Assembly (NCBI GenBank): GCA_021849425.1
Contig: JAJZSY010000004.1
Location: 62,001-126,000 of the forward strand
Source of the DNA: Pseudomonadota bacterium
GTDB lineage: Bacteria; Pseudomonadota; Alphaproteobacteria; Acetobacterales; Acetobacteraceae
Length of the DNA: 64,000 nt
Direction of reading: 5' to 3'
Shown: positions 16,665 through 33,425 of the stretch, piece after piece
Position numbering within the stretch: the stretch's first letter is position 1
How the letters are laid out: each line of letters starts with the position of its first letter
Notes under the pieces: model-generated
Told to the model about the DNA's origin: nothing
What the model saw: the letters and a program-made list of their open reading frames with translations, nothing else
Databases searched by the model: none
Program-made: the position numbers and the translations under genes

Positions 16665-16713
16665 AGAGCATCTTTATCCGATCAGATGAGTCCATCTGAT
16701 CGGATGATGCTCT
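16665..16713. repeat. Palindromic intergenic element A (solo copy)
   Basis: 49-bp imperfect palindrome: AGAGCATC (16665-16672), three-T bulge, ATCCGATCAGATG (16676-16688), loop AGTC, CATCTGATCGGAT (16693-16705), GATGCTCT (16706-16713). It is identical over all 49 bp to 32036-32084. It sits between the convergent ends of der and the glycine-zipper gene, and its right end runs into the latter's TAG stop. It would form a 21-bp hairpin in RNA from either strand, but lacks a following T-run. Confidence 0.9.
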
Positions 16714-17272
16714 AGTATTGCCCGTTCTGGTAGCCGTTGCCCTGGTCATACGGGTTGCCCTGATTGTAGGGATTCCCCTGATTGTACGGGTTGCCCTGGT
16801 CGGGAGCGCCGTTGTTGTAGGGGGCACGGTGATCCTGCCGGTATTGGCCGTTCTGCGGATACTGGTTGCCCTGCCGGTATTGGCCGTTCTGCGGATACTG
16901 GTTGCCCTGCTGATACTGGCCGTCCTGCCGATATTGGTTGTCGTGGCGGTACTGGTCGCCTTGCGGCCTGTCGGGGCGGCGATAGGCGCCATAGGCGCCG
17001 GGCGGCGGGGCGGGTTGCGGGGTTGTCAGCGCGCCACCGAGGGCGCCGACCGCGCCGCCGATCAGCGCGCCGGTGGCTGGGCTGCCGCCGGTGGCTGCCC
17101 CGATCGCGGCCCCCGTGCCGGCGCCGATCGCCGCCCCGCCCAGGGCGCGCTGGCCGGGATCATAGGGGTTGGTGCAGCCGGCGAGCGCCAGCGCCGCGGC
17201 GACCACCGCGACGGCGGCGCCGGAACGCCGCAGAGAGCGGCGCGGGAAAAGGCGGGATGGGATCGGGGTCAT
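16712..17272 (-). CDS. Glycine-zipper lipoprotein with Q/N/Y-rich repeats
   Basis: 186-residue predicted outer-membrane lipoprotein. Signal sequence and lipobox (ALALAGC), a glycine-zipper segment (GGAAIGAGTGAAIGAATGG, then GALIGGAVGALGG) at about residues 43-82, then a low-complexity tail made of two repeat types: QNGQYRQGNQYP-like 12-mers and NPYNQG hexamers. Glycine-zipper lipoproteins of this kind insert into or brace the envelope; the function of the Gln/Asn/Tyr tail is unknown. The start at complement 17270-17272 has a strong GAGGAGGAG upstream. The stop codon TAG coincides with the end of palindrome A. Confidence 0.8.
   Translation of the reverse strand: MTPIPSRLFPRRSLRRSGAAVAVVAAALALAGCTNPYDPGQRALGGAAIGAGTGAAIGAATGGSPATGALIGGAVGALGGALTTPQPAPPPGAYGAYRRPDRPQGDQYRHDNQYRQDGQYQQGNQYPQNGQYRQGNQYPQNGQYRQDHRAPYNNGAPDQGNPYNQGNPYNQGNPYDQGNGYQNGQY
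16751..16909. repeat. Tandem DNA repeats in the glycine-zipper gene tail
   Basis: 18-bp units at 16751-16768 and 16769-16786 (plus a partial third) encode NPYNQG-type hexamers. Near-perfect 36-bp units at 16838-16873 and 16874-16909 encode the 12-residue QNGQYRQGNQYP-type repeats. Unit sizes are multiples of 3, so copy-number change would keep the frame. Confidence 0.85.
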
Positions 17273-17430
17273 GCTCTGCTCCTCCTCAGATCGGTCGCAT
17301 GACGTCCCGGCCCTGCCGGAATGGATGTCGCGCGGCCATAACGTCGTCATGACGGCGGGAGATGGCCCGGCGATGGTGGAAATGTGGCGATTGTGGAGCA
17401 GACGGCCCGCGCCGCGGGGGCGGAGCGGTC

Positions 17431-17550
17431 TGTCCGGCCGGATGGAAACATCCATTCGGACAGATGAGTCCCGCAGCGCCGCCGCTTGATGCTCTATTTA
17501 TCAATACCATAGAGCACTACATCCGATCCGGATGGATCGGAAAGTGCTCT
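17431..17550. repeat. Composite palindromic element (B intact, A degenerate)
   Basis: Element B at 17511-17550 is a 40-bp palindrome (AGAGCACT ... AGTGCTCT, with inner TCCGATCC-GGAT-GGATCGGA) and is the exact reverse complement of 31981-32020. A 15-nt linker at 17496-17510 matches 11 of 15 positions of the linker at 32021-32035. Beyond it is a decayed element A that keeps GATGCTCT (17488-17495) and CAGATGAGTCC (17461-17471) but has lost its inner arm. A separate hairpin (TGTCCG/CGGACA with GGATG-GAAA-CATCC inside, 17431-17462) overlaps the decayed part. The rest of the 276-bp gap 17273-17548 holds no gene and presumably the glycine-zipper promoter. Confidence 0.85.
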
Positions 17551-18778
17551 AAAGCGCGCCGCCGCGCCGGCCGATGGCGCCGCCGAGGCGTAGGCGCAGG
17601 GCGTTCAGCTTGATGAAGCCGGCCGCGTCCTGCTGGTTGTAGGCGCCCTCGTCGTCCTCGAAGGTGACCATCCGCGCCGAGTAGAGCGAGTTGGGGCTTT
17701 CGCGGCCGGCGACGATCACGTTGCCCTTGTAGAGTTTCAGGCGCACCCGGCCGGTGACGGAGTTCTGGCTGGCGTCGATCAGCGCCTGGAGCATGCGCCG
17801 CTCGGGGCTGAACCAGAAGCCGTTATAGATCAGCTCGGCATAGCGCGGCATCAGGCTGTCCTTCAGATGCGCCGCCTCGCGGTCGAGCGTGATGCTCTCG
17901 ATGGCGCGATGCGCCGCCAGCAGGATCGTGCCGCCCGGGGTTTCATAGACGCCGCGCGACTTCATGCCGACGAACCGGTTCTCGACGAGGTCGAGCCGGC
18001 CGATGCCGTTGTCGCGGCCCAGCTCGTTGAGCCTGGTGAGCAATGTCGCCGGCGAGAGCGCCTCCCCGTTCAGCGCCACCGAGTCGCCCTGGGCGAAATC
18101 GATGCTGATTTCGGTGACCACGTCCGGCGCCGCCTCGGGGCTGATCGTCCGCTGGTAGACGATCTCGTCCGGCGCCTCGGCGGGGTCTTCGAGGATCTTG
18201 CCCTCGGAGGAGGAGTGCAGCAGGTTCGCATCGACCGAGAACGGCGCCTCGCCGCGCTTGTCGCGGGCGATGGGGATCTGGTGCGCCTCGGCGAATTCGA
18301 GCAGCTTCGTGCGGCTGGTCAGGCTCCATTCGCGCCAGGGGGCGACGACCTTCACATCCGGCTTCAGCGCGTAATAGGCGAGTTCGAAGCGGACCTGGTC
18401 GTTGCCCTTGCCGGTCGCGCCATGGGCCACGGCGTCGGCCCCCACCGCCTCGGCGATCTCGATCTGGCGCTGCGCGATCAGCGGCCGGGCGATCGAGGTG
18501 CCGAGCAGGTACTGGCCCTCGTAGAGCGCGTTGGCGCGGAACATCGGGAAGACGAAATCCTTCACGAAGGTTTCGCGCAGATCCTCGACGAAGATTTCCT
18601 TGACGCCGAACATCTCGGCCTTGCGCCGCGCCGGCTCCAGCTCCTCGCCCTGGCCGAGATCGGCGGTGAAGGTGACGACCTCCGCCGCCCGCTCGGTCTG
18701 CAGCCAGCGGAGAATGACACTGGTATCGAGCCCGCCCGAATAGGCCAGCACAACTTTCTTTACGGTGTTTTCAGCCAT
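17549..18778 (-). CDS. argG: Argininosuccinate synthase
   Basis: 409-residue enzyme that condenses citrulline and aspartate with ATP to argininosuccinate in arginine biosynthesis. The PP-loop motif AYSGGLDTS is near the N-terminus, and the family blocks [13 protein letters not shown] and [13 protein letters not shown] are intact. The C-terminus ends in an Arg/Gly-rich GRRGGAL, and the stop TAG is formed with the first bases of palindrome B. argH is 676 bp upstream on the opposite strand, separated by a TlpA-like gene, so argG and argH are close but not one operon. Confidence 0.96.
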
Positions 18779-31693: not shown

Positions 31694-32213
31694 GGCGACC
31701 TGTCGTGAGTTTATGGACGTGCTGCCGCGAACCCGGAGCGCGGCCAGGGCAGCAATAGGCGGACGGCGTTAACAAACCATTTCGCGAACGGTTCGCGAGC
31801 CGGAAACGATACGGATAGCTCCCACTCTTGTTTTGTTAGGGCAACGTCCGGCCCCGCCTGCCGGGCATCTGACTTTATCCTGTTGATAATGGTTGTATCC
31901 CTGCCAAAACGGACAGGATCATCCCATCGGGTAGTCGCGGGAGCCCCGAACGGCGGCGGCCGTTCGTGACGCGCGCTTCTAGAGCACTTTCCGATCCATC
32001 CGGATCGGATGTAGTGCTCTATGATATTGATATTCAGAGCATCTTTATCCGATCAGATGAGTCCATCTGATCGGATGATGCTCTAACAGGCGGCATCGTG
32101 GAGACAAATGAAGACTTGATGTCATTTTCCCCATGTCGGCTGCCCCATGTCGGCCGCGGCGCGCCGCGATCTCTCCGCTTGGTGCCGTGCGGCCGCGCTG
32201 ATATGGTCGTGCC
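31694..32213. other. 520-bp intergenic region with palindromes
   Basis: No gene. Contains a 17-bp perfect palindrome at 31782-31798 (TCGCGAAC-G-GTTCGCGA) just after GTTAACAAACC, a moderately AT-rich stretch (31800-31915) that could carry a promoter, the 104-bp composite repeat (31981-32084), and a direct repeat of CCCCATGTCGGC near 32129-32155 shortly before the methyltransferase gene. Confidence 0.6.
31981..32084. repeat. Composite double-palindrome element B-linker-A (intact)
   Basis: Element B (31981-32020, 40 bp; identical to the reverse complement of 17511-17550), 15-nt linker ATGATATTGATATTC (32021-32035), element A (32036-32084, 49 bp; identical to 16665-16713). A and B share the ends AGAGCA/TGCTCT and the inner TCCGATC...GATCGGATG, so they look like diverged members of one family. 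The overall plan (about 100 bp, two large palindromes, intergenic) recalls RIME elements known from Rhizobium, though the sequence differs from what I recall. Confidence 0.9.
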
Positions 32214-33425
32214 ATGCGCCAAACGCAGCCCGCCTCTGCCGCGGACTCTGCCCTGGTTCGCGACATTCTCGACTTCGCCGCGCTCGGCAGCGCGACGAGC
32301 CACGAACGCGCCGAGGGAATCGACTATTTCATCAATGCGTTCTGGACCGCCGGGCAGCGCCAGGCGCATGCGATCCACGAGATTTCCTATCGCGCCTGTT
32401 TCAAGCCGCAACTGCCGGAATTCTTCATCGCCCGCCTCACCGCGCCCGGCGACCTCGTTTTCGACCCGTTCATGGGCCGCGGCACCACGCCGTTGCAGGC
32501 CGCGCTGATGGGCCGCCGGGCCGGCGGCAACGACATCAGCGGGCTTGCGGCGATGCTATGCCGCCCGCGGCTGCGACCGGTCGGGACCGACGCGGTCGAG
32601 GCGGCGCTGCGCGGCGTCGACTGGTCGCGCGGCGCGGTCCGCCGCCCCGAGTTGCTCGCCTTCTACCACCCGGCGACCATGGCCCGGCTCGAGGCGCTGC
32701 GGGACTGGATCGGCGAGCGCGCCCCGCCGGGCGACGACAGCCCCGATCCGGTCGTGGACTGGATTCGCATGGTGGCGATCAACCGGCTCGCCGGCCATTC
32801 CCCCGGCTTCTTCTCGGGCCGCTCGATGCCGCCCAACCAGGCGGTGTCGGTCGCGGCACAGCTGCGGATCAACGCCCGGCTCGGCCGCGCGCCGCCGGAG
32901 CGCGATATCGCCGCGCTGATCCTGCGCAAATCCCGCACCCTGCTGCGCGACGGCGCGGTGCCGCAGGGCGCGCGGCCCCGCCTGTCCACCGGACCGGCCT
33001 GGGATGTTCCGCTCGACGCCGGCGCGGTCGCGCTCGCCGTCACCTCGCCGCCATTTCTCGATGTCGTCGACTACGCGGCGGACAACTGGCTGCGCTGCTG
33101 GTTCGCCGGGCTCGATGCCGGCGCCGCGGCGCTCGGCCAGCACCGCGGCGCGGCGGGCTGGACGGCGATGGTCCGGCGGGTGCTCGCCGAGCTGGCGCGG
33201 CTGGTGCGGCCGGGCGGGCATGTCGCCTTCGAGGTGGGCGAGGTGCGGGGCGGGCGCATCCTGCTCGAACGGCAGGTCTGGCAGGCGGCGGCGGAGCTGC
33301 CGTTCGAGCGGCTGGGCGTGCTGGTCAACCGGCAGCTTTTCACCAAGACGTCGAATTGCTGGGGGGTGAGCAATTTCACCCGCGGCACGAATTCAAACCG
33401 CGTCGTCCTGCTGCGCCGGCGCTAG
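32214..33425 (+). CDS. Amino-DNA methyltransferase-like protein
   Basis: 403-residue SAM-dependent methyltransferase. Motif I is DPFMGRGTT (residues 84-92), next to GNDIS; the catalytic motif IV is TSPPF (277-281). The order motif I, about 185 residues, motif IV is alpha-like, and the insert could recognise the target. SPP fits exocyclic amino (N4-cytosine or N6-adenine) methylation. An N-terminal Trp/His segment (AFWTAGQRQAHAIHEISYRACFKPQLPEFFI) precedes motif I. No restriction enzyme or specificity subunit is nearby, so it is a solitary enzyme; an RNA substrate is not excluded. It ends at CTAG, shared with the convergent nitrilase stop. Confidence 0.75.
   Translation: MRQTQPASAADSALVRDILDFAALGSATSHERAEGIDYFINAFWTAGQRQAHAIHEISYRACFKPQLPEFFIARLTAPGDLVFDPFMGRGTTPLQAALMGRRAGGNDISGLAAMLCRPRLRPVGTDAVEAALRGVDWSRGAVRRPELLAFYHPATMARLEALRDWIGERAPPGDDSPDPVVDWIRMVAINRLAGHSPGFFSGRSMPPNQAVSVAAQLRINARLGRAPPERDIAALILRKSRTLLRDGAVPQGARPRLSTGPAWDVPLDAGAVALAVTSPPFLDVVDYAADNWLRCWFAGLDAGAAALGQHRGAAGWTAMVRRVLAELARLVRPGGHVAFEVGEVRGGRILLERQVWQAAAELPFERLGVLVNRQLFTKTSNCWGVSNFTRGTNSNRVVLLRRR

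Follow-up and report, generated by a model that had tools for sequence, protein, structure and literature searches.

A CIR-type composite repeat from the genus of Acidiphilium multivorum, probably a miniature element moved by an IS630-type transposase

RIME, an intergenic repeat of the alphaproteobacterium Rhizobium, consists of two large palindromes, and the BIME and REPIN elements that go with RAYT are repeated palindromes at the 3′ ends of genes. Within the IS630 family of insertion sequences, IS870 is a member that targets CTAG. The Caulobacter CcrM-associated intergenic repeats (CIR) of Chen and Shapiro (2003; via PMC2229807 and PMC10969869) are described as units of ~110 bp with two inverted-repeat arms and a linker, GANTC at or in the loop, and TA ends (PMC2229807). 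The same 2007 review names GANTC as the recognition sequence of CcrM and sets CIR apart from other repeats, including RUP, by the arms and linker; its account of CIR leaves target duplication and mobility unexplained. RUP of Streptococcus pneumoniae, an intergenic repeat of 107 bp with a TA-containing target and ends like those of IS630-Spn1, stands in that review's account of RUP as the only bacterial repeat with a known link to an insertion sequence (PMC2229807). As for the IS630 family itself, the transposase of its member ISY100 alone moves DNA into TA in vitro, duplicating the TA, and the reference list of the same paper carries a 1991 title by Tenzen and Ohtsubo on the preference of IS630 for TA in CTAG (PMC2170065). 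Br-REP1 and Br-REP2 are described from Bradyrhizobium, and the Br-REP1 consensus includes both GAATC and GATTC (PMC5082802). Our literature search, which covered titles and the starts of abstracts, returned no work linking CIR or RIME to IS630.

The composite repeat considered here lies in a stretch of 64,000 nucleotides, called the window. It shares with CIR, as described, a length of ~110 bp, two arms joined by a linker, TA termini, intergenic position and an alphaproteobacterial host. By description only, it is also like RIME in plan and like RUP in size, intergenic position, TA-containing target and IS630-like ends. The parts of the composite and its relatives in the window are as follows, the boundaries of the two TA dinucleotides being set by the ends of copies in named genomes and by empty sites.

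31980 to 32085, + strand: complete composite with its two terminal TA dinucleotides (TA GAGCA...TGCTC TA)
31980 to 31981, no strand: left TA, a putative target-site duplication, within CTAG at 31979-31982
31981 to 32020, + strand: arm B, an imperfect palindrome (AGAGCACT...AGTGCTCT) with a loop that has no GANTC
32021 to 32035, + strand: 15-nt linker joining arms B and A
32036 to 32084, + strand: arm A, an imperfect palindrome (AGAGCATC...GATGCTCT)
32059 to 32063, + strand: GANTC site at the arm A loop, which reads GAGTC in this copy; CcrM recognition sequence (PMC2229807)
32084 to 32085, no strand: right TA, a putative target-site duplication
16665 to 16713, + strand: lone arm A after der
17488 to 17550, − strand: second B-linker with a remnant of A, at argG

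The initial annotation had described identical copies of both arms and a conserved linker, and its window coordinates were confirmed: arm A (49 bp) is identical at 16665-16713 (+) and 32036-32084 (+), arm B (40 bp) is identical at 31981-32020 (+) and 17511-17550 (−), and the linker at 32021-32035 agrees with that of the argG locus at 11 of 15 positions, as counted by eye. The argG locus keeps a remnant of A, with 17488-17550 aligning to query positions 1-63 of the 104-bp unit. All 104 bp of the window composite are 100% identical to G000:C62:11898-12001. There is no transposase gene inside these 104 bp, which bears out the earlier statement that the element has none of its own and distinguishes it from IS630-family elements. 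A search with Rfam at gathering scores over 16-33 kb of the window gave one tRNA and no match in the element region.

The host genome, a draft assembly from an acid-loving bacterium, is grouped in a genus that includes Acidiphilium multivorum, and the closest genome found is that of A. multivorum AIU301 (G007), whose ArgG is 98% identical to that of the window. The argG stop codon TAG (17549-17551, −) comes from the B edge of the element; in A. multivorum the argG stop is TAA and there is no element at that place. Similarly, the right end of the lone arm A, TCTAG, gives the TAG stop of a convergent Gly-zipper (PF13441) ORF (16712-17455, −). The initial annotation had noted this solo arm after der. 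It is probably a remnant and not an independent unit, because TA is missing from its left side and the corresponding place in A. multivorum is occupied by another hairpin pair, now decayed, as judged by eye. Directly downstream of the window composite lies a DNA methylase gene (PF01555, N6_N4_Mtase; 32214-33425, +). The spacer between nrdB and this methylase gene is wholly different in the two species, and its version in AIU301 (L084) seems, by eye, to contain a tRNA-like segment. That spacer was considered as an empty counterpart of the window locus and set aside, being element-free yet otherwise unalignable, with no boundary obtainable.

At least 84 matches to the 104-bp unit were obtained in the host genome (2.9 Mb, 65 contigs), of which at least 43 span at least 83 of the 104 positions; the remaining matches are shorter, and many of them are arm A against its own reverse complement. 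The list was drawn from 40 scored candidates out of 108 at first look, so that copies are missed, among them two of the window's own, the lone A and the one at argG. Three of the 43 long matches are A-linker-A arrays and not B-linker-A, and contigs C7 and C64 open with the same sequence and possibly represent a single region entered two times. One other copy, L001, is 100% identical to that of the window. The linker is 15 nt long in most of the own-genome copies listed, L018 having one several nt longer. These data establish a dispersed family and not a local duplication, and they agree with the proposal of the initial annotation that the two arms move together, joined by a fixed linker. Tandem arrangements and a second composite hairpin family were also observed at the following places.

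Host genome, C58:970-1091; C23:217457-217625; C7:1-206; C25:93077-93284: tandem arrays, either A-linker-A ~65 bp apart or whole composites ~104 bp apart
L065:730-849, L066, L070, L071 and L072 of G007, and the right flank of L011 of the host genome: second composite hairpin family of ~118 bp, with ends AGTGTCC...GGACACT or similar

Contigs C7 and C64 start inside a tandem array. The ~118-bp family abuts the B-linker-A element with one TA common to both, the order element-118 bp-element occurs at three places in G007, and relatives of this second family are found on plasmids of A. cryptum JF-5 and A. multivorum.

Copies of the element are also found beyond the host genome. A full-length copy (88.5%) is carried by a plasmid of A. 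multivorum JZ-6, and a DNA match was detected in 17 of 80 genomes searched as relatives (host genome included), among which several match arm A only and G066 matches over just 24 bp, possibly by chance. When named genomes were scanned with the first 16 bases of arm A followed by GANTC, at least 103 stretches were retrieved, of which 80 are listed, with about two chance matches expected on a rough estimate. Within the Acetobacteraceae, the listed stretches come from an uncultured MAG, which has the largest share, and from Nguyenibacter, Gluconacetobacter sacchari, Acidomonas, Brytella and Roseococcus; the others come from Rhodospirillales MAGs, a Proteobacteria MAG, a Bradyrhizobiaceae MAG and a Devosia MAG, in addition to two Bacteroidota MAGs whose stretches have no hairpin. 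Many of the listed Acetobacteraceae stretches share one layout, in which a first arm bounded by TAGAG...CTCTA is followed by ~15 nt of linker and then by arm A. Arms with the same start and TAGAG ends occur in the Acetobacteraceae, the Rhodospirillales MAGs, the Bradyrhizobiaceae MAG and the Devosia MAG. Plasmid searches gave no match with a Bradyrhizobiaceae-type copy, and with a Nguyenibacter-type copy the sole match was arm A of the JZ-6 plasmid copy. The likening to RIME-type repeats was apt at the level of the RIME description, whereas the addition that lineage and sequence are different was too strong, the same 16-base start, plan and TAGAG ends being present in other alphaproteobacteria.

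The mode of insertion can be addressed from the ends of the copies and from sites where the element is absent. Among 56 parsed copies from named genomes (L139 parsed twice; drawn from the at least 103 stretches, 80 of them listed; 36 of the 56 with two first-arm types seen in one Acetobacteraceae MAG, and so not independent across taxa), TA is present at both ends in 50, and 44 of these 50 read C-TA...TA-G. The left end is CTA in 52 and the right end TAG in 44, and the flanks farther out look random. Five sites filled in the host genome, L009, L012, L014, L049 and L051, are empty in A. multivorum G007. Each empty site has a single TA, and its filled counterpart is bounded by TA on either side, except that filled L012 and L051 each have one end with a single decayed base. 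For L009, the two flanks overlap on the G007 sequence by 4 bp, reading CTAG, and the net insertion is 101 bp. For L014, the target is TTAA and the filled ends are TTAG and CTAA, indicating that the duplication is TA and not four bases. The pre-insertion targets at the five sites are CTAG, CTAT, TTAA, CTAA and GTAG. Of 17 joined-flank pairs, four gave clean empty sites (L012, L014, L049 and L051); the L016 site is filled in both species, and the L052 match across the junction is weak (71% identity), lacks TA and is interrupted at the junction by a gap of 7 bp; it lends the TA rule no support and may not be a true ortholog. For the other 11 pairs, either a single flank matched, the flank was a repeat (L001), or no clear match emerged. 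L057 was rejected as an empty site since its flanks are not contiguous in G007. The element is best read as having been mobile since the split from A. multivorum. One could also suppose that CTAG belongs to the element's own ends and that insertion has no target specificity, as CTAG stands at both ends of most of the 56 parsed copies; this is extremely improbable, because TA is already there in all five empty sites and L014 duplicates TA only.

Many copies lie at stop codons. The TAG at the element's edge is the stop of a coding-like frame at 14 of 15 edges of host-genome copies, 5 of 5 in G007 and 28 of 31 in named genomes, where a coding-like frame was required to have at least 60 codons and a GC3 minus GC2 of at least 0.25 and to run to the element edge. 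The edges tested numbered 58 (30 copies), 18 (9 copies) and 99 (52 copies), respectively. Against a null of one third, the binomial p values are 2e-6, 4e-3 and 6e-11, for copies that are not fully independent. The host-genome test used 30 of 44 loci, with arrays, contig ends and cut or repeated copies excluded beforehand (L008, L013, L015, L018, L021, L024, L025, L027, L050, L053, L058, L060, L061 and L062); from the G007 set, L064 was excluded, as were the second copies of L065, L066 and L070. At empty L009, L012, L049 and L051, a native stop, TAG or TAA, is found at the same position, as at argG. The tetranucleotide CTAG is rare in the 64-kb window, with 6 occurrences observed against 49 (Markov) or 180 (composition) expected. 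By simple gene calls, three of the six coincide with stop codons. Two of the six form element ends, of which one is at a stop; among the four outside elements, two are at stops, one being common to two convergent genes. On this small CTAG count, a CTAG-preferring transposase could find gene ends without further targeting. As CTAG is preferred while it is avoided in the window and half of its occurrences there are at stops, insertion would often fall on stop codons, and at several loci the gene is seen to be spared because the element ends begin with TAG on both strands, by which the stop stays in place. One CTAG of the window, at 33422-33425, forms the overlapping stops of two convergent genes, in an arrangement like that of empty L009 in A. 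multivorum, and would be a natural target of the element.

The ends of the element led the comparison to insertion sequences of the IS630 family. In a search for inverted-repeat pairs at IS630 loci, in which TA ends were required and the remainder was free, 14 of 30 loci from the bacterial family showed a pair; 13 of these start with TAGAGC, the fourteenth being weak. The 13 TAGAGC-tipped elements are 1031-1098 bp long, and 10 of them lie in a C...G context. At loci from the genus, 13 of 30 have such a pair; TAGAGC begins 5 of them and other sequences begin 8, some being weak, and these mixed starts suggest that TAGAGC marks a subgroup of IS630. G007 carries both the composite and an IS630 element with TAGAGC tips. 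The closest terminal repeats (L250_R, L259_R, L265_L and L275_L) agree with one or both ends of the composite at 15-16 of 18 positions. Beyond TAGAGC, the agreement between insertion-sequence and element ends is moderate, with means of 5.5 and 6.0 of 12 positions (n=36 ends), compared to 3.4 of 12 at 335 other TAGAGC sites, a control that may contain undetected element copies. For four of four protein pieces tested, the best NCBIfam match is IS630, with two above the cut-off. The composite and CTAG-targeting IS630 members are alike in TA duplication and CTAG preference, and its TAGAGC tips are shared by IS630 elements found here.

Of 13 genomes from the genus, 12 have IS630-family matches (DDE_3). 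The exception is the host draft, which at 94% completeness gave no match to DDE_3/IS630 and none to a transposase fragment from a TAGAGC-ended copy. Across the family, this fragment matched in 101 of 200 genomes. The distribution of such transposases does not follow that of the element, with matches in 7 of 13 listed element-positive genomes versus the 101 of 200 overall, and G001, G007 and G009 are not among the element-positive genomes listed with a fragment match. We infer that an IS630-type enzyme moves this element.

A RAYT or BIME-type mechanism, raised initially, is not supported. The composite has in common with BIME, REPIN and Br-REP elements that repeated palindromes lie at the 3′ ends of genes, and its two related hairpins, short linker, CTAG at the outer hairpin feet and many copies could suit a REPIN-like element moved by RAYT or another IS200/IS605-type (Y1) transposase acting on hairpins. 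An IS200/IS605 tnpA gene (L216:2519-2935) even lies 65 bp from the full-length copy on the A. multivorum JZ-6 plasmid. Y1_Tnp (PF01797), however, has no match in the 94%-complete host draft, where no RAYT gene was found, or in G007, and among the 80 relatives it occurs in 2 of 17 element-positive versus 13 of 63 element-negative genomes, showing no association. Elements of the IS200/IS605 type are not known to duplicate their target on insertion, and the TA duplication at the empty sites would not be expected of them, nor is it a feature shared with BIME and REPIN. TA duplication at CTAG-like sites together with IS630-like ends points to a DDE transposase rather than RAYT, and the hairpin-acting enzyme is very unlikely to be the mover.

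The inner structure of the element is that of two strong hairpins. Folded as RNA, the window copy is predicted to form both at −60.3 kcal/mol (z −9.1), a value equalled by 0 of 200 shuffles. Across 37 distinct 47-base arms, whose selection fixed 16 bases at the start and 5 at the end but left the inner 3′ side free, two-sided changes keep several inner-stem pairs paired; for example, pair 22-29 is C-G in 20 and T-A in 15, and pair 20-31 is A-T in 16 and G-C in 15. GANTC is present at the arm A loop in 28 of 46 host-genome copies, 11 of 12 in G007, 0 of 6 in G046 and 8 of 13 in other genomes. All four bases occur at its N position, and in 3 of the 28 the site is shifted by one position (GAATC). 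GANTC is therefore recurrent, not universal, and in this respect the composite differs from CIR, a substantial share of the copies studied here lacking the loop GANTC. Arm A variants with two stem GANTC sites (GAATC and GATTC) were seen in L122, L135, L141 and other Bradyrhizobiaceae MAG loci, and recall Br-REP1 of Bradyrhizobium. An IHF site in the linker, raised by the recurring TATCAA, was rejected as the second half of the consensus is absent. A protein with a RAMA domain (PF18755) is encoded on contig C54 of the host genome, and among 14 control genomes this domain was found in Caulobacter only. It is consistent with a CcrM-type enzyme and a better CcrM candidate than the methylase beside the element. 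A role of the hairpins in RNA stability or termination, or of GANTC in cell-cycle methylation, would be a candidate function.

These properties also bear on whether the composite is a functional, vertically kept 3′-end or regulatory module, acting as a terminator, a stabiliser of RNA or a CcrM signal, for which recombination and gene conversion, and not transposition, would be the main means of spread. The stop-codon position, the strong hairpins with their paired changes, GANTC at one loop, the RAMA-domain protein and the filling of L016 in both species would all be in line with such a module. Vertical maintenance is nevertheless difficult to reconcile with five empty sites showing TA duplication, with two identical copies on different contigs and with occurrence across families, and by eye no T run follows the window copy, unlike in a classical terminator. 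We consider a module of this kind quite unlikely as the main explanation.

Collectively, TA at both ends, the five single-TA empty sites, the CTAG preference, and the IS630 tips and target indicate that the element is very probably a CIR-type composite repeat and a non-autonomous MITE, mobilised in trans by an IS630-type transposase into TA, preferably CTAG. In the proposed mechanism, the outer ends TAGAGCA...TGCTCTA would serve as terminal inverted repeats for an IS630-family transposase, which would be supplied in trans and is the enzyme presumed to act. Judging from studied relatives, this transposase may excise the element by cut and paste and then join it into TA, preferably inside CTAG, with duplication of the TA. 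Given the avoidance of CTAG in the window and its occurrence at stops, insertion would often take place at stop codons, where the terminal TAG, present on both strands, would replace the stop in place and spare the gene, as seen at several loci. Two strong hairpins, one often with GANTC, would then be left behind the gene, to judge by the sequence and the predicted fold.

The anatomy of CIR is known, and what is new is the mobility reading. TA duplication, a CTAG-like target, stop-codon position and the IS630 link all go beyond the CIR description, and the composite adds, for its own branch, pieces that this description is missing. Empty sites with TA duplication, together with IS630 tips and target, make the question of CIR mobility directly testable, and the match of the element's ends to those of IS630 suggests a clue to the movement of a long-puzzling group of bacterial repeats. 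The position at stop codons shows how a mobile element that favours a rare tetranucleotide can be directed to the ends of genes while doing little damage, and such insertions could provide ready-made 3′ ends. It is possible, and we put it forward tentatively as rather doubtful, that the whole CIR/RIME-type class of alphaproteobacteria consists of IS630-derived miniature transposons, stop-codon specialists that install a two-hairpin 3′ end often with a CcrM methylation site. If this is true, each insertion would swap a stop codon without changing the protein and would add to the gene a two-hairpin 3′ end, often with a CcrM site.
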